Assembly (NCBI RefSeq): GCF_002954265.1
Contig: NZ_PPSL01000004.1
Coordinates: forward strand, 186,001-250,000
Direction: 5' to 3'
DNA from: Flavipsychrobacter stenotrophus
GTDB lineage: Bacteria; Bacteroidota; Bacteroidia; Chitinophagales; Chitinophagaceae
Length of the DNA: 64,000 nucleotides
Each line of letters opens with the position of its first letter. The first letter of the stretch is position 1. A program made the translations under genes and the position numbers. Below are positions 56,280 to 63,539 of this stretch, one piece after another. Below the pieces are notes generated by a model. That model saw only the letters and a list, made by a program, of their open reading frames with translations. It did not search any database and was not told the DNA's origin.

Positions 56280-57713
56280 TTGGAAAACAGCTCATCTTTT
56301 CGCCGTTCGCTTACCTTGCTCGACGGGGCACTTCTTGTTATCGGCTCCATGATCGGATCCGGCATATTTATAGTAAGTGCCGACATAGCGCGCTCGGTAG
56401 GTAGTGCCGGTTGGCTCATAGTTGTTTGGCTTATTTCCGGATTTATAACCCTGACTGCGGCATTGAGCTATGGTGAGTTAAGTGGGATGTATCCGCATGC
56501 CGGTGGCCAATATGTCTATCTCAAGGAGGCGTATGGCAAGCTTTATGGTTTCCTATATGGCTGGTCATTTTTTGCAGTTATACAAACCGGAACAATCGCG
56601 GCTGTTGGCGTAGCCTTCGGCAAGTTCGCCGGTTATCTCAACCCTGCTTTGGGCGATGAGAATATCTTAATAGGAACGGCCGCAGGTTATCACGTCAGTG
56701 CTGCTCAGCTCATAGGCATAGGCACAATTGTATTTCTAACCTTCATCAACACAGGTGGCGTTAAGAGTGGTAAGTGGATACAATTTGTTTTCACATTTGC
56801 CAAGATAGCTGCTATGGCAGGCCTTATAGTATTTGGTTTCTTCTTCTTCAAAGACCATGCTATCTGGAACATGAATTGGAGCGAAGCCTGGAACGCTAAG
56901 GTTATTGGTGGTAGTGCTACAGTAATTACCCATCAAAGCCTGGCAAACGGTGCATTGATCGTTGCTATTTGTACGGCCATGGTCGGAGCCATATTCTCCA
57001 GCGATGCATGGAATAGCGTAACCTTCATTGCCGGTGAGATCAAGCGCCCGGAACGCAATATCGGCCTTAGCCTGTTTATAGGTACACTGGTTGTTACTGT
57101 TCTTTATGTAAGTATGAATCTCATGTACCTCAATGTGATGAGTGTGTCTGAGATCGCCGGTGCTCCATCCGATAGGGTGGCCACTGCCGCAGCATTAAAG
57201 ATATGGGGTGCCGATGGTGCTAAGATAATTGCTTTACTCATTATGGTTTCTACATTTGGGTGTAACAATGGTTTGATATTGTCGGGTGCACGTGTATACT
57301 TCACCATGGCAAAAGACGGCTTGTTTCTACCTGCCGCTAAGAAGCTCAACAATAAAGGTGTTCCTTCCATTGCATTATGGATGCAGTGCATCTGGGCATC
57401 TGCGCTCTGCCTCAGTGGCAAGTATGGTGCGCTGCTCGATTTCATTGTATTTACAGTATTAGTGTTTTACATACTTACTATAGGTGGCATCTTTAAGTTG
57501 CGTATGACCAAGCCCGATCATCCAAGGCCCTATAAAGCATTCGGTTATCCGTTTATACCTGCTTTGTACATTGCCATGGCAGCATTCATATGCATAGTAT
57601 TACTGAAAGAAAAGCCTGAAACTACATGGCCGGGACTTATCATTACATTGATAGGCTTGCCTATATATTATTTTTTACAAAAGAGTGGTGTTAAAGGAGA
57701 TGAACAAAGCTGA
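56280..57713 (+). CDS. APC-superfamily amino acid permease
   Basis: 477 residues with twelve predicted helices. The first contains the family motif GSMIGSGIFI, the substrate-site glycine run. Further marks: GGQYVYLKEAYG and the SGARVYFTMAKDGLF loop. Related proteins exchange or import amino acids (LAT/serine-threonine exchanger type); substrate unknown. A TTG start is used, as no ATG precedes the first helix. The 3' end overlaps the heptose kinase gene by 14 bases. Confidence 0.87.
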   Translation: MENSSSFRRSLTLLDGALLVIGSMIGSGIFIVSADIARSVGSAGWLIVVWLISGFITLTAALSYGELSGMYPHAGGQYVYLKEAYGKLYGFLYGWSFFAVIQTGTIAAVGVAFGKFAGYLNPALGDENILIGTAAGYHVSAAQLIGIGTIVFLTFINTGGVKSGKWIQFVFTFAKIAAMAGLIVFGFFFFKDHAIWNMNWSEAWNAKVIGGSATVITHQSLANGALIVAICTAMVGAIFSSDAWNSVTFIAGEIKRPERNIGLSLFIGTLVVTVLYVSMNLMYLNVMSVSEIAGAPSDRVATAAALKIWGADGAKIIALLIMVSTFGCNNGLILSGARVYFTMAKDGLFLPAAKKLNNKGVPSIALWMQCIWASALCLSGKYGALLDFIVFTVLVFYILTIGGIFKLRMTKPDHPRPYKAFGYPFIPALYIAMAAFICIVLLKEKPETTWPGLIITLIGLPIYYFLQKSGVKGDEQS

Positions 57714-58698
57714 CCTCAACAAGATTTTCAATGATATGAGTAACCTCCACGTAATGGTGGTAGGAGATGTGATGCTCGATAACTACTGGTGGGGAAATGT
57801 AGACAGGATCTCCCCCGAAGCACCGGTGCCTATAGTGTCGCTCGATAGGCGTGAGAGTCGCTTGGGTGGCGCTGCTAATGTGGCGATCAACTGCCGCGCA
57901 TTAGGAGCTACTGTTACCCTTGCGAGCGTAGTGGGCGACGATGCCGAAGGAGACTCCTTGATCCGAATGGCAGAAGATGCCGGCATCGAGACCGATCTCA
58001 TTATGAAGAGTTTCAGAAGGCCAACTACCACCAAGGTAAGGATACTCAGTCGCAACCAGCAAATGATGCGCCTGGATGATGAAACTACCGATGATCTTTA
58101 TACTGAAGAAGAGCATCCGTTCATAGATATGGTACTGCGCTACCTGCAGAGGGTAAAACCACAGGTCCTCATTTTTGAAGACTACAATAAGGGTGTGCTT
58201 AAGGAGAATGTCATCAAGCGTATCACCGATCATTGTAACGAGATCGGCATCATCACAGCCGTAGACCCTAAGAAGAAGAACTTCCTGTCTTATAAGAATG
58301 TTACCCTATTTAAGCCCAATCTGAAAGAAGTGCGGGAGGGGTTAAATATGCCATTAGAAAATACCGGTCTCAATGAACTGAATGCGGTGCATAATAAACT
58401 CAACGAAGTGCTGGATCATAAGATCACCTTTATCACCTTATCTGAAAAAGGGGTATTCTACAACGACGGCCACACCTCGGGTATTATCCCATCTCATATC
58501 CGCGATATAGCCGATGTTTCCGGGGCAGGTGACACAGTAATCGCCACAGCCGCAATGGTCTACGCCCTTACAAAGAATGTCCACCTTATGGCCGAAGTTT
58601 CCAACCTTGCCGGTGGCTTGGTATGTGAAGATGTAGGTGTAGTATCCATTAAAAAAGATAAGTTGCTTAAGGAAAGTGAGTTGGTGTTGTGTAAGTAA
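57700..58698 (+). CDS. D-glycero-beta-D-manno-heptose-7-phosphate kinase (RfaE1/HldA)
   Basis: 332 residues from the ATG at 57700, preceded by aaaggag, a good ribosome site inside the permease end. PfkB family: GDVMLDNYWWGNVDRISPEAPVPIV, RLGGAANVA and the signature DVSGAGDTV with the catalytic Asp. Phosphorylates heptose-7-phosphate at C1 for LPS core or glycan precursors. There is no cytidylyltransferase half (HldE type), so a separate gene is needed. Overlap with the permease implies a shared transcript. Confidence 0.92.
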   Translation: MNKADLNKIFNDMSNLHVMVVGDVMLDNYWWGNVDRISPEAPVPIVSLDRRESRLGGAANVAINCRALGATVTLASVVGDDAEGDSLIRMAEDAGIETDLIMKSFRRPTTTKVRILSRNQQMMRLDDETTDDLYTEEEHPFIDMVLRYLQRVKPQVLIFEDYNKGVLKENVIKRITDHCNEIGIITAVDPKKKNFLSYKNVTLFKPNLKEVREGLNMPLENTGLNELNAVHNKLNEVLDHKITFITLSEKGVFYNDGHTSGIIPSHIRDIADVSGAGDTVIATAAMVYALTKNVHLMAEVSNLAGGLVCEDVGVVSIKKDKLLKESELVLCK

Positions 58699-58755: not shown

Positions 58756-58863
58756 GACGTACTTCTTTGAGACTCACTAAGCCAGTCATCATTGCAAGCA
58801 ATGATGCAATTGACGTATCAGGACTCATTCGTTTATATCTCCATCTCTTTCCAAACACATAAC

Positions 58864-58895
58864 AAAAAAGGATGTTCACCCGGACATCCTTTTTT
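58864..58895. terminator. Bidirectional terminator
   Basis: 12-bp stem aaaaaaggatgt/acatcctttttt with an eight-base loop, between the convergent heptose kinase and anti-sigma/barrel genes. Confidence 0.88.
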
Positions 58896-58912
58896 ATATA
58901 ACAGATCATTGT

Positions 58913-61747
58913 TTATTTCGATAGTCTGTATCCGAGCGTCAGTCTGAAATAGCTTGTTGATAATCCCTTATTCACGTCATAGCCACCCTGTACATTCGTC
59001 TTGGTTGGGGCTTTGGTCCAGAGGGCATCTACCAGCCACCTCTTCCTTATCTCATAGCTTACGCCCAGCATACAGCCTAGTCTGAACAAACCTCCGCTCT
59101 GTACAGGGTACAACGGACCGGAATAGCTGTTGATGTTATTGCCCGCATATTGCAATACAGAACTAATTGGCGCAGGTGCTGTAGGGTATATGGTAAATGA
59201 CGTGTCATTTCTTACTATAGGCCTGCTGGTGTAGGTATGTTCCTGTACTTGAATATACTTGCTGTAGTTAAGGCTTAAACCACCGTAAACAGAAAGCTTA
59301 TTATTGATAGCATATTTCAGCATTATCGGTAATTCAAATTCCATATAATTGCCGCCGGTGGCATAAGACTTTACAATAGAATCGTGCGTCTCGTGATACG
59401 CAACATTTATCCTCAGCAGGTATCCTGTTGTCTGGTTATTCTGTATCACCGGTATCAGGAAGCTGTCTACATTGGTTACAGTGCCATTAGGATCTGTTCT
59501 GTAAAATGTTTGCGTTCCGCTTAGACCATTAGTTCTTGCTGCAGACGACTTGATAGAAGGCTGTGCCATTAAAGAGAACTTAGATGAGATCTGGCGTTCA
59601 ATGAACGGCGAGATCACAAACTTTCTCGAAGCATCACTAGTTACACCACCTTCATAACCCACCTTTACACCATAGGTGAATCCACCAAACTTATGCTTTT
59701 GGGTGGGCGAATCTACACCCGCTGTAGCAGCGGCAGGTACCGGTAATGCCACTGTTTCTGCTGGCTTTATAGATGGGGTCTGCGCATCTTTAAATGTACT
59801 CATTACCTTTTGTGTTTCCGGTGTTACCAGCGGTTTTGTTTGTGCCACGGTAGTTGGTTCCGGCAGTTTGTTAGCCGTAGAAGTTGCGCTCAGTACATTT
59901 GGTGGTTCAGGCTTGTTATTGTTTTTGTGTTTTTTATTGTTCTGCGCGAGTGCTTTATTTGTAGCAGTCTGGGCTGTTTTAGGGGCCTGCTTTTTATTCT
60001 TGGCAACCCTGCCTACTGTTAGCTCCCCATTATCTGCCACATCATCTTTTGTATTCTTGGCTACCGCAGTCTTTACATTCTTTTTTACAACTGTGCTTGT
60101 AGTCGCCGATGCATCTTTAGAAGCAATAGTTGTTGCTCCAGATTGCGTGCCGATTACTGGAGTAGTTGCAGCTATGTACTTACCACCATGTTTCTTTTTA
60201 TTGTTAACCGATGGGGTAGGTGTTACTGCAGCTATTTCATTATTGTTTACAGCTTTCTTGCCCGATGCAAGTTGTGCAACGGTAGCGGCAGTAGTAGCTT
60301 TATGTTGAGTTGTTTTGTACTCCTGCTTAGTTACTACGTCGGTAGGCTTCGTTGCTACTTGGCTCTGCTTAACAGATGCGGTGGTTGAAGTTTTGGCTAC
60401 CGTCTTAACGGCAGGCACTGTTGCAGCAACTACTGGTTTTGTTTCAGTGGTTGTAGTAACTTTCTTCTTAGCTGTTTTCTTTACAGGCACATTGACTGCC
60501 ACAACAGCTGTAGACTTCGTGGCAGTTGTTTTTACGACTGCTTTTTTCAGGTGGGTAGTAGTCACAGTGCTTGCAGTAGTTTGCTCAGTTTTGGTAGCTA
60601 CTGGATTTGTGTTTTGTACTGGCTTGGCCGACGCAGTCTCTACATCAGTTGTTCTTGTTGCAGGTTCTGCTTTTACCGTTTTTTGCTCAGTCTTTATCGG
60701 TTTGTTAACTGTTACAGTTTTTGCTGTCGTAGCAGCCGTATTAATCCCTGCAGCTGGTTTCGTTGCAGCAGGTGTATGCGCAATTGCACTCATTGTGCCG
60801 GTGTTATTAGTAATGGAGTAGGGGTTGCTGTTCGATCCGCCATTACTTCTGCGACTGTTTCTTTTACGCGGGTTAGTGGTAACAACTTGGTTCGATGTTG
60901 AGCTTGGAGCTGGCAAAACTGATCGTCTGTTCGCGGTATGTTTTGTTGGTATACTGGTTATGCTGGTTCTGTTGCCATAATGATTACCGGCAACAACCGG
61001 GCGGCCCTCATAGCTTGCAGATGCAGCATACGTATTACGCGGTGCAGGTTCATTGTTCTCTACTCTTGGTTTTCTGCCAAAGGTTACGTTATCTTCTTCG
61101 CCATCCTCGGCGGTGTTATAAGTAGTGTTGTTGTATGCAGGTTCTGTTTCAGTTGCAACTATATTGTTACGGCTCTTGTTGTTGGTAACGTACCTTATGG
61201 GTGCATGTTCTGTGCCGGGTGTTGGTTCTACATTAACCATGGCAACTGTGGTATTGTCCAGTAGATCGGTCTTTGTAGTTCTGTTGGCCGATCCCGTTAT
61301 ATTACTGTTGCTGTTGTTGACGGCTACATTAGTACTTTGAGATTGCTCATTGCCAGAATTATTTTTGGTACTGTTTATATCATTGGTGCGCTTTACGTGT
61401 TTTTTGTGCGTAATTGATGTTGTTGAAGCGTTGCTCCCGGCAGATGTGTTACCCGGAGTTGTTGCCTGCTTTTCCACAGGCGGCTGCTGAATTGATGCGA
61501 TGCCGGAAGCCTCCGCAACACCAGGTGTTGTACCCGAATGTCCGTTCATCTTCCAGGCGAAGAGAGAACCAAAAAGGCCTACCCCGCACAACATCACAAA
61601 AAACCATCTCCACGCGAAGGGCCGTTTTTTCTTATCATTGTCTAACCTCCGTTCCAGAGCATCCCACACATCGGGAGGCGGTACCTCGGTGTACCCACCA
61701 AGGCCTTCTCTGAAGAGGTTATCAATATTGTTTACATCTTGTTTCAT
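58913..61747 (-). CDS. Predicted dual-membrane anti-sigma factor with outer-membrane barrel
   Basis: 944 residues. 1-42: soluble, acidic start (DNLFREGLGGYTEVPPPDVWDALERRL), the type of anti-sigma segment seen after ECF sigma genes in Bacteroidota. About 46-65: one membrane helix (WRWFFVMLCGVGLFGSLFAW). About 70-687: low-complexity linker rich in Thr, Lys, Ala, Val and Asn, without domains. 688-944: barrel strands from GGFTYGVKVGYEG to SYFRLTLGYRLSK. This predicts one chain reaching from cytoplasm through inner membrane and periplasm to the outer membrane. It starts eight bases after the sigma gene. I recall similar proteins in Bacteroides described as dual membrane-spanning anti-sigma factors. 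Long reverse-strand frames here come from composition alone. Confidence 0.85.
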   Translation of the reverse strand: MKQDVNNIDNLFREGLGGYTEVPPPDVWDALERRLDNDKKKRPFAWRWFFVMLCGVGLFGSLFAWKMNGHSGTTPGVAEASGIASIQQPPVEKQATTPGNTSAGSNASTTSITHKKHVKRTNDINSTKNNSGNEQSQSTNVAVNNSNSNITGSANRTTKTDLLDNTTVAMVNVEPTPGTEHAPIRYVTNNKSRNNIVATETEPAYNNTTYNTAEDGEEDNVTFGRKPRVENNEPAPRNTYAASASYEGRPVVAGNHYGNRTSITSIPTKHTANRRSVLPAPSSTSNQVVTTNPRKRNSRRSNGGSNSNPYSITNNTGTMSAIAHTPAATKPAAGINTAATTAKTVTVNKPIKTEQKTVKAEPATRTTDVETASAKPVQNTNPVATKTEQTTASTVTTTHLKKAVVKTTATKSTAVVAVNVPVKKTAKKKVTTTTETKPVVAATVPAVKTVAKTSTTASVKQSQVATKPTDVVTKQEYKTTQHKATTAATVAQLASGKKAVNNNEIAAVTPTPSVNNKKKHGGKYIAATTPVIGTQSGATTIASKDASATTSTVVKKNVKTAVAKNTKDDVADNGELTVGRVAKNKKQAPKTAQTATNKALAQNNKKHKNNNKPEPPNVLSATSTANKLPEPTTVAQTKPLVTPETQKVMSTFKDAQTPSIKPAETVALPVPAAATAGVDSPTQKHKFGGFTYGVKVGYEGGVTSDASRKFVISPFIERQISSKFSLMAQPSIKSSAARTNGLSGTQTFYRTDPNGTVTNVDSFLIPVIQNNQTTGYLLRINVAYHETHDSIVKSYATGGNYMEFELPIMLKYAINNKLSVYGGLSLNYSKYIQVQEHTYTSRPIVRNDTSFTIYPTAPAPISSVLQYAGNNINSYSGPLYPVQSGGLFRLGCMLGVSYEIRKRWLVDALWTKAPTKTNVQGGYDVNKGLSTSYFRLTLGYRLSK

Positions 61748-61755
61748 CGCTATTC

Positions 61756-62352
61756 CTATTGCTGCATTAATAAATTTATCTTGTCTTTCAATCTTCGCCG
61801 GGCATCATTCAAATACCATCGGCTGTTATTTTCTGTTATGTCTAGTAGTCCTGCTATTTCTTTGTGCGGGTAGTTTTCAAATACAAATAAGTTGAAAACC
61901 GCCAGCTGTGCTTCCGGCAGCGTCTGTACTACCTGCATCAATTCTTTAAACGAAAGATTGCCTAGTGAGCCGCTATCTGTAAAGCCATCTTCCGGTTGCA
62001 CTTCCTTGGTTACCTGGTCATTTTTCAGGTTCTTTCTTAAGTAGTCGGTGACGGTATTCACCACTATTCGCCTTATCCACCCTTCAAACGCACCCTGGAA
62101 GGAGTACTGGTCAAGCTTGGTGAAAATTTTATAGAACGAATCGTTGAGTATTTCTTTGGCCGCATCTTCATTGCCAAACATGTACCTTTTTATTATCCCA
62201 TATGCTGCCGGAGAGTATAGGTCATATAGTTTTTTCTGCGCACTTCTCGACTGGGCAATACACTCTTTCACAAGTACATAAAGGTCGTGCTGATCTGCAG
62301 CCACCTTTTCTGTTGCCTGTAAAGGAATGTTTATATTTAATTGTCCGGTCAA
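61756..62352 (-). CDS. ECF-type RNA polymerase sigma factor
   Basis: 198 residues. Region 2 (about 40-105): LYDLYSPAAYGIIKRYMFGNEDAAKEILNDSF, then FEGWIRRIVVNTVTDYLRK, the -10-binding helix. Region 4 (about 140-198): TLPEAQLAVFNLFVFENYPHKEIAGLLDITENNSRWYLNDARRRLK. No extra C-terminal domain. First gene of a two-gene unit with the anti-sigma/barrel protein; the first 20 residues are poorly conserved, so the start may be a little later. Confidence 0.95.
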   Translation of the reverse strand: MTGQLNINIPLQATEKVAADQHDLYVLVKECIAQSRSAQKKLYDLYSPAAYGIIKRYMFGNEDAAKEILNDSFYKIFTKLDQYSFQGAFEGWIRRIVVNTVTDYLRKNLKNDQVTKEVQPEDGFTDSGSLGNLSFKELMQVVQTLPEAQLAVFNLFVFENYPHKEIAGLLDITENNSRWYLNDARRRLKDKINLLMQQ

Positions 62353-62660
62353 CGACTGATGTTTATTTTCTATGTTTTATTGCTAATCTATTGTACACCT
62401 ACCCACTATGACGAGTGGCAGAAAGAAAATGTTAGGAAAAAGCACAAATATTATTAGCACGTGCCAGTTTTGTAAATTTTCACCTAATTATTTTTCTAAG
62501 TTACTAACAATTGCGCTTATATGAACGTCATTTATACCGGAGAAAGTGTATCTGGTAATTACGGAAAAAAAGCAGGATTTTGATTTAATACTACAATACC
62601 TGTTCTTTCTGCTTGCGCTAAACACCTATTTAAATACATTTGCCAATCAAATATTCACCT
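62353..62660. other. Divergent intergenic region, sigma operon and T9SS gene
   Basis: 308 bases, A/T-rich, no supported gene. It must hold the promoter of the ECF operon (minus) and of the secreted protein (plus). ECF units are often self-activated, so a sigma-specific promoter is expected here, but I could not identify one with confidence. Confidence 0.5.
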
Positions 62661-63539
62661 ATGAAGAAACTTTGCCTGCTCATCATTTCGGCTTTTTCCT
62701 TGCTCTCCGCTGAGGCTCAAACAGTTACGTCGCTGGGACAAGATTTTAATGTTACCTGTGCTTCAGGTGGTACGCTTTACCCGCTCTACTGGTCTGAGTG
62801 GAATGTAATTGCACCTACCGCCGCCCTCGCATGGCAGTGTACCCAATTGGGCGGACGAGCCGGCACCCCCGGTATGCAGTGTAATAGTTTTTTTAGTGGC
62901 ATACATTACCTGGATACAGCATGGTTGTTTACGCCTCGTCTTGATCTTACCGGTTTTACAGATAGCGTTTACCTCCGTTTCGATTCTCGTTACAACATTA
63001 GCGGCGCCCGCATGCAGGTGCTCATCAATCACATGTACAACACGGGCAATCCTCCCGATACTACCACCTGGACGGACATGGATAGTGCAAGCCGGCTTAG
63101 CCCTGTTATTGGCCCCGATGATTCTGCAGGTTGGGTTACCCATTATGTAAATCTTACTTCCTACAAGAATATTCCTTTGTATGTTGCCTTTAGGTACGCC
63201 TCTACGGCCACTACCGGCGGTTCATGGACTATCGACAACGTTTTCCTTACGCCATGGGGCTTAAGTGTAGGTGATGAAGTCAAGAAGAACATTGCCCTTA
63301 CAATTCTGGGTAATAGCACTGCCGACAAAATCACCTTCTCAGGCACCTTTACTACCCCCGGCGACTATGATGTAGAGATCTATGACAACATGGGGAGAGT
63401 AGTGCACAAACAAACGATCTATGCCGCTACCGGTACTCAATCTCAAACCATTCGCAGTCTCAATCTTCATAGTGGTATGTACTTCATAAAAGTTGGCAAC
63501 AGCATCAGCTACCAGGTAGCAAAGACTGTAGTAGAATAA
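62661..63539 (+). CDS. Secreted protein with T9SS C-terminal sorting domain
   Basis: 292 residues from the ATG at 62661 (MKKLCLLIISAFSLLSAEAQ, signal peptide). The middle (about 25-190) is a beta-sandwich of the carbohydrate-binding or MAM-like type (FDSRYNISGARMQVLINH, YVAFRYASTATTGGSWTIDNVFL). The C-terminal T9SS type A sorting domain (about 215-292) includes DYDVEIYDNMGRVVHKQTI and SGMYFIKVGNS. Surface-exposed or released; ligand unknown. Adjacent to the ECF operon and transcribed away from it, so it may be a target of that sigma factor. Confidence 0.88.
   Translation: MKKLCLLIISAFSLLSAEAQTVTSLGQDFNVTCASGGTLYPLYWSEWNVIAPTAALAWQCTQLGGRAGTPGMQCNSFFSGIHYLDTAWLFTPRLDLTGFTDSVYLRFDSRYNISGARMQVLINHMYNTGNPPDTTTWTDMDSASRLSPVIGPDDSAGWVTHYVNLTSYKNIPLYVAFRYASTATTGGSWTIDNVFLTPWGLSVGDEVKKNIALTILGNSTADKITFSGTFTTPGDYDVEIYDNMGRVVHKQTIYAATGTQSQTIRSLNLHSGMYFIKVGNSISYQVAKTVVE

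Follow-up and report, generated by a model that had tools for sequence, protein, structure and literature searches.

A predicted envelope-spanning anti-sigma factor with a long, slack tether and a candidate type IX secretion regulon in Flavipsychrobacter stenotrophus

How can a signal cross two membranes and reach a sigma factor in the cytoplasm when no energised receptor carries it? This general question is raised by two genes in a 64,000-nucleotide stretch of Flavipsychrobacter stenotrophus DNA (contig NZ_PPSL01000004.1, positions 186,001 to 250,000; here called the window), where an extracytoplasmic function (ECF) sigma factor is encoded beside a 944-residue protein. We propose that the pair is a sigma/anti-sigma switch of the Dma type, in which the anti-sigma factor carries a slack tether, the sigma factor would be freed by proteolysis, and promoters of the form CTAAC-N17-CGTC would serve a regulon of proteins with type IX secretion system (T9SS) sorting tails and a second ECF sigma factor. 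We put the probability of this reading at roughly 0.7. The architecture is already known as a Bacteroidota family; what would be new is the combination of a long slack tether with a predicted T9SS surface-protein regulon that has a defined promoter. An earlier note, made from the window's sequence, had described the pair and its layout, and the promoters, the divergent T9SS-tailed gene and the predicted regulon go beyond it.

Both open reading frames (ORFs) are as that note had them. The sigma factor gene (61756-62352, minus strand; 198 amino acids, with a TTG start as listed) matches Sigma70_r2 (E 2.1e-9) and Sigma70_r4_2 (E 1.2e-10), both over the Pfam cut-off, and the gene for the predicted Dma-like anti-sigma factor (58913-61747, minus strand) lies 8 nt downstream. 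Since the two genes share a strand, are separated by only 8 nt and are followed by a terminator-like hairpin directly past the anti-sigma stop codon (58862-58897, minus strand; one found versus a shuffle mean of 0.2), they probably form one operon.

Is the start of the partner an anti-sigma domain? Residues 1-48 (61604-61747, minus strand) make up a putative cytoplasmic sigma-binding domain of two short helices, modelled at residues 5-16 and 25-40 and followed by a third at 43-68 (mean pLDDT 76.6). Trp28 is invariant in alignment A3 and conserved at 90% or more in set A4, which comprises the window protein and 50 complete partners of at least 371 amino acids from the best 80 loci of a scan of named genomes. 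A hidden Markov model (HMM) of residues 1-48, trained on nine sequences of the window's group, matched 62 of the 689 ORFs of these named loci at E<=1, and 57 of the 62 directly follow a sigma factor ORF. The other five (L107, L125, L140, L148 and L162) begin where a sigma match ends or close to it; their sigma ORFs were missed by ORF picking and were seen in the sigma scan. These results support a conserved sigma-linked domain, which would bind sigma. The single membrane helix that the earlier note had placed after this domain is found at residues 49-67 (61547-61603, minus strand), both by hydropathy and within the modelled helix 43-68.

If the N terminus is cytoplasmic, where does the other end lie? 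The note had proposed a C-terminal barrel, and residues 690-944 (58916-59680, minus strand) are indeed predicted to be an outer-membrane beta-barrel domain. OMP_b-brl_2 matches residues 706-907 (E 4.9e-5), and an AlphaFold2 model from seven sequences has 13 strand segments (mean pLDDT 66.6, pTM 0.55; 78 of 255 residues at pLDDT >=90 and 98 below 50). Going by their titles, all 50 PDB matches listed by Foldseek for this model are outer-membrane proteins. Among the matches listed, the top one by E-value is FapF, with a target TM of only 0.28, and the small barrels OmpA (1bxw, 1qjp), OmpX, Ail and OmpW reach 0.53-0.62. It is also possible to read the domain as a periplasmic beta-sheet domain, so that the protein would span the inner membrane only. 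This would fit an OMP_b-brl_2 score of 23.9 bits, under the 27-bit cut-off, and a model of moderate confidence that superposes loosely on known barrels (rmsd 7.6-16.5 Å), both of which count against our proposal. However, the Foldseek matches are to outer-membrane proteins, and matches at E<=0.01 to OMP_b-brl_2 in 33 of the 51 A4 proteins and to OMP_b-brl in 17 (the overlap between the two is not given) point the same way, and we regard a periplasmic sheet as very unlikely. Thus, the barrel fold in the earlier note is supported by modelling, and its closure is not proven.

Between helix and barrel lie 622 residues (68-689; 59681-61546, minus strand), close to the domain-free stretch of about 620 that the note had described; a Pfam scan of the whole anti-sigma factor gave no match there. 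The linker is low-complexity and fast-evolving, and its composition (T 18%, A 13%, K 10%; 1.9% aromatic and 17% hydrophobic residues; net charge +42) agrees with the Lys/Thr-rich character noted earlier and is the basis on which we judge it disordered. A tandem-repeat array was considered and rejected, as a search for repeats found none. With a contour of approximately 224 nm and an expected span of approximately 24 nm by our own polymer formula, such a linker would be slack across a periplasm that is approximately 20–30 nm wide.

Could the tether nevertheless transmit force, so that an event at the outer membrane pulls the anti-sigma factor off the sigma factor, as the earlier note had suggested? 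A single polypeptide predicted to link both membranes would allow it. The relatives of the pair argue otherwise. Among 59 related genomes searched (the window's own included), 56 had a sigma match at E<=1e-20, and the ortholog group comprises 13 loci, the window among them, with sigma factors 45-98% identical to the window's in set A1. In ten of these loci the available DNA spans the complete partner gene, and all ten products share the layout of helix, linker and a final 255 residues that can be aligned with the window's (27-96% identity), which is more than chance would give. The partners are 944 (window), 942, 923, 893, 953, 1021 and 1050 amino acids long within the genus and 602, 563 and 553 in three other genera. 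Homologs with the same order and a different linker length, which the note had recommended looking for, therefore exist: linkers are 572-735 residues within the genus versus 236-274 in the other three genera, and with contours of 85-99 nm the short ones, too, would be slack. Excluding the nearest strain, linkers are only 23-39% identical to the window's, versus 28-100% for the N terminus and 27-86% for the barrel. Since the tether would be slack, direct pulling is unlikely, and we give this reading a very low probability. One orthologous switch with tethers of approximately 240 to 735 residues makes force versus proteolysis directly testable.

How, then, might the proposed Dma-type switch work? 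The N terminus would hold the ECF sigma factor at the inner membrane, and a tether that is slack and disordered would join it to the barrel in the outer membrane. Disturbance of this outer-membrane end, its failure to assemble or its binding of a ligand would inactivate the anti-sigma factor, most likely through periplasmic cleavage and subsequent RseP-like intramembrane proteolysis and not through mechanical force. The freed sigma factor would read CTAAC-N17-CGTC promoters, boosting its own operon and switching on the divergent T9SS-tailed protein, several more T9SS-tailed proteins and the second ECF sigma factor. The genome (G000; 5.43 Mb in 21 contigs, with the window on contig C12) encodes one RseP-like Peptidase_M50 over the cut-off.

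The promoter was recognised by aligning upstream regions. A predicted ECF promoter, CTAAC-N17-CGTC, precedes the sigma/anti-sigma operon (62409-62435, minus strand), and a mirror-image copy (62504-62530, plus strand) faces a divergent gene (62640-63539, plus strand; 299 amino acids as listed, with an in-frame ATG seven codons inside the listed start). The product of this gene, a predicted target, has choice-of-anchor J and T9SS type A sorting domains. TAAC-17-CGTC lies upstream of the sigma gene in 12 of 13 orthologs; in the exception, L048, AAAC takes the place of TAAC and the spacing is unchanged. The mirror copy is present at all 11 loci with a homologous divergent gene (products 41-95% identical to the window's) and at neither of the two loci without it. 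The forward form is found in none of 11 paralogous pairs, where two reverse-type matches are attributable to chance; L098 was left out of this comparison. The T9SS type A domain of the divergent product is over the cut-off in three of the four loci scanned out of the 11 (window, 33.9 bits; G015, 32.7; G009, 27.8).

Is the motif confined to genomes that carry the switch? We searched for a strict form, CTAACRNTTN13CGTCW, using the reversed pattern as a control. The five genus genomes hold 30 strict sites versus 5 reversed (G000, 9 versus 2; G004, 6 versus 0; G006, 5 versus 0; G007, 4 versus 2; G009, 6 versus 1). We also searched 16 genomes from other genera of the same family, of which G015, G021 and G030 have an ortholog and 13 were judged to lack one, their best sigma matches being at most 43% identical. 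The ortholog-bearing G015 has 5 strict sites versus 1 reversed, and the 13 genomes judged ortholog-free have 1 versus 9.

The genes behind these sites suggest what the switch controls. In G000, eight of nine strict sites precede an ORF: the window sigma, a second ECF sigma beside rsmE, and six T9SS-tailed proteins (the divergent gene of the window, two genes in L209, two in L210 and one in L211). T9SS tails are frequent in this genome, with 150 matches scored among 291 candidates; assuming approximately 5000 genes, we estimate the background at perhaps 3–6% of genes. Setting aside the sigma and divergent promoters, five of the six ORFs behind strict sites in G000 encode T9SS-tailed proteins, far over this background. 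With the same promoters excluded, there are 26 further strict sites across G000, G004, G006, G007, G009 and G015. Of these, 15 precede genes for products with a T9SS type A match over the cut-off and 4 precede a second ECF sigma factor, while 2 precede products with no T9SS match (L214, by both libraries; L216, by Pfam only), 4 lack any ORF within 350 nt (including one that lies inside a 77-residue ORF) and 1 is inside a gene. These gene kinds predict a T9SS surface-protein regulon as the output, and the motif supplies a concrete target list. In L209 (5787-14065), the strict motif stands ahead of each of two large genes with Big_2 domains and T9SS tails, and between them a relaxed site (L251) precedes a gene that is similar by eye.

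It is also possible that the anti-sigma factor is real and that another ECF sigma factor, for example the second one, reads CTAAC-N17-CGTC, leaving the Dma-type sigma with a different regulon. The strict motif lies upstream of the second-sigma ortholog in four of the five genus genomes (G000, G004, G006 and G009), a pattern that counts against our assignment, and ECF regulons may overlap, as discussed for Flavobacterium psychrophilum (PMC9723704). However, nearly every ortholog of the window-type sigma has the motif upstream, and the motif is not enriched in the 13 family genomes judged to lack that sigma. G007 and G015, which may lack a second sigma altogether, also have no strict site before one. 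On balance we consider another reader unlikely, and the window sigma would be the one that recognises the motif. The second sigma (192-209 amino acids; best NCBIfam match PRK12513, 147.5 bits versus a cut-off of 206) is encoded in the region of G000:C11:385216 (L089, L183) and is followed by rsmE, with no anti-sigma-like gene there.

Further observations weigh against the proposed Dma-type switch and its regulon. The strict motif was derived from the sigma and divergent promoters themselves, and the choice of TT and of the terminal W was made post hoc, with these sites in view. A relaxed pattern shows no excess in G000 (28 sites versus 28 reversed), and the case for the regulon therefore depends on the strict form and on where the sites lie: 19 of the 28 relaxed sites are upstream of an ORF, 5 inside ORFs and 4 neither, versus 3, 24 and 1 of the reversed sites. 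Among the 19 relaxed sites that are not strict, 9 are followed by an ORF whose start resembles a signal peptide under a simple in-house hydrophobicity rule, versus 2 of the 28 reversed sites (Fisher p 0.0034). Since G030 has 0 strict sites (control, 1) and G021 only the one at its own sigma promoter (control, 1), the regulon is not seen in every ortholog-bearing genus. Two pairs of G000 targets are mutually paralogous, so the target counts are not independent. The divergent product of G007 scores 20.9 bits for T9SS type A versus a cut-off of 23, and no ortholog was detected in G001, a genus-mate whose genome is 82% complete. At E<=10 the N-terminal HMM finds 20 ORFs that are not beside a sigma ORF, including the five described above. 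Finally, Peptidase_M50 is present in all 14 control genomes as well, so its presence lends little weight to proteolytic release.

How does this system compare with those already described? In Dma1/Das1 and Dma2/Das2 of Bacteroides thetaiotaomicron, as in the window, an anti-sigma gene lies beside an ECF sigma gene and encodes an anti-sigma N terminus, one helix, a long disordered tether and a barrel (PMC13088901). This likeness of layout bears out the note's comparison with the dual membrane-spanning anti-sigma factors of Bacteroides. Occurrence in a Chitinophaga-like organism, which the note took, along with the long linker, to extend the family, does not do so by itself, as Dma proteins are described as a family found solely among Bacteroidota (PMC13088901). 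EcfO-Reo of Phocaeicola vulgatus and Bacteroides fragilis likewise has a predicted periplasm-spanning anti-sigma factor with an outer-membrane barrel, is a proposed outer-membrane stress sensor, and has a sigma gene induced along with its regulon (PMC9308784, PMC13114119). For both systems, release of the sigma factor is proposed to follow from stress at the outer membrane (PMC13088901, PMC9308784, PMC13114119).

The outputs differ. Those named for Dma are vesiculation, NigD1 and polysaccharide utilization loci (PMC13088901), whereas T9SS-tailed targets are predicted here. Antibacterial toxins induce EcfO-Reo, as does prolonged oxygen in B. fragilis, and its regulon includes three nigD genes, with no T9SS-tailed regulon described in the available text (PMC9308784, PMC13114119). 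NigD_N has no match in the window's own genome (a control genome, Bacteroides ihuae, was positive), and on this ground a NigD regulon as in Bacteroides was rejected. Precedents for a tie between ECF sigma factors and type IX secretion come from other systems. SigP of Porphyromonas gingivalis differs in being activated by the two-component system PorXY and in controlling T9SS component genes, with no anti-sigma factor named in the parts available (PMC7712824). The SM6 promoters of F. psychrophilum are a precedent for ECF control of T9SS machinery; the selected targets include machinery (GldN, PorU and a PG0189 homolog) as well as non-T9SS genes, in contrast to the sorted cargo predicted here, and the type of anti-sigma factor is not stated in the text seen (PMC9723704). 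A full-text literature search, judged mostly by titles and the starts of abstracts and covering few subscription papers and not the founding PNAS 2024 paper, found no Dma-type pair controlling T9SS-sorted proteins. If our proposal is true, envelope-spanning anti-sigma factors would be linked to T9SS cargo; the available portions of the Dma and EcfO papers name no such output. TonB-linked signaling of the FecI/FecR type was considered separately and rejected: the partner has no FecR match at E<=1, and the sigma scores 77.7 bits versus a cut-off of 126.4 for TIGR02985, which we take to mark the Bacteroides FecI-like sigma group.

Sigma-adjacent, single-helix partners of 400-724 amino acids are also present in records that bear the names Flavobacterium, Saprospira, Chitinophaga and Bacteroidales, another sign that occurrence outside Bacteroides does not by itself extend the family. 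The long linker that the note stressed is at the upper end, the window's protein with its 944 residues being the longest of the 51 in A4 (median 465, quartiles 409-563), but such lengths are usual within its own genus. Three listed loci are titled outside Bacteroidota (Treponema, Azovibrio and Sphingomonadales metagenome-assembled genomes), for which mis-binning is the likely explanation. Four partners of 196-255 amino acids (L121, L136, L155 and L158) match the N-terminal HMM and seem too short for a linker plus barrel, suggesting an N-terminal domain with varied far ends.

Seven partners, each beside a sigma gene and with a predicted helix, have at the far end not a barrel but a CHU_C type IX secretion domain over the cut-off (all on the plus strand: L129:2358-3608, L134:5538-6764, L151:2349-4037, L172:4007-5584, L123:5513-6556, L133:5514-6554 and L118:5525-6448); in L169 the CHU_C match is just under it. 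The N-terminal HMM matches L123, L133 and L172 clearly and L118, L129 and L134 weakly, and L151 is not among the 60 matches listed. In the sigma tree, CHU_C-type pairs are scattered among the presumed barrel types (4 changes, 2 forced). Among the papers open to full-text search, none pairs 'anti-sigma' with 'gliding motility-associated C-terminal domain'. Since an anti-sigma factor ending in CHU_C could itself be a T9SS substrate, it could meter secretion directly. A tentative extension, rather unlikely in our view, is a surveillance circuit in which the outer-membrane anti-sigma factor would report the state of the outer membrane or T9SS, renew the T9SS-sorted coat and raise the second sigma, with its CHU_C-ended relatives acting as such meters.

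The window's genome has two more sigma genes with helix-plus-linker partners (L052, 734 amino acids; L053, 410). The N-terminal HMM matches the L052 partner at 1.4e-8 and that of L053 at only 0.025; Pfam gave no barrel family for either, with a weak DUF2490 match under the cut-off in L053. In a tree of 58 sigma factors, one of the genome's other sigmas adjoins Chitinophagaceae bacterium Jr-11may16-151 and another Taibaiella sp. LF-bin-309, which points to a probable place in the Chitinophagaceae. Convergent with the anti-sigma gene is a gene for a PfkB-family kinase (57685-58698, plus strand), presumably of the heptose-7-phosphate kinase type.

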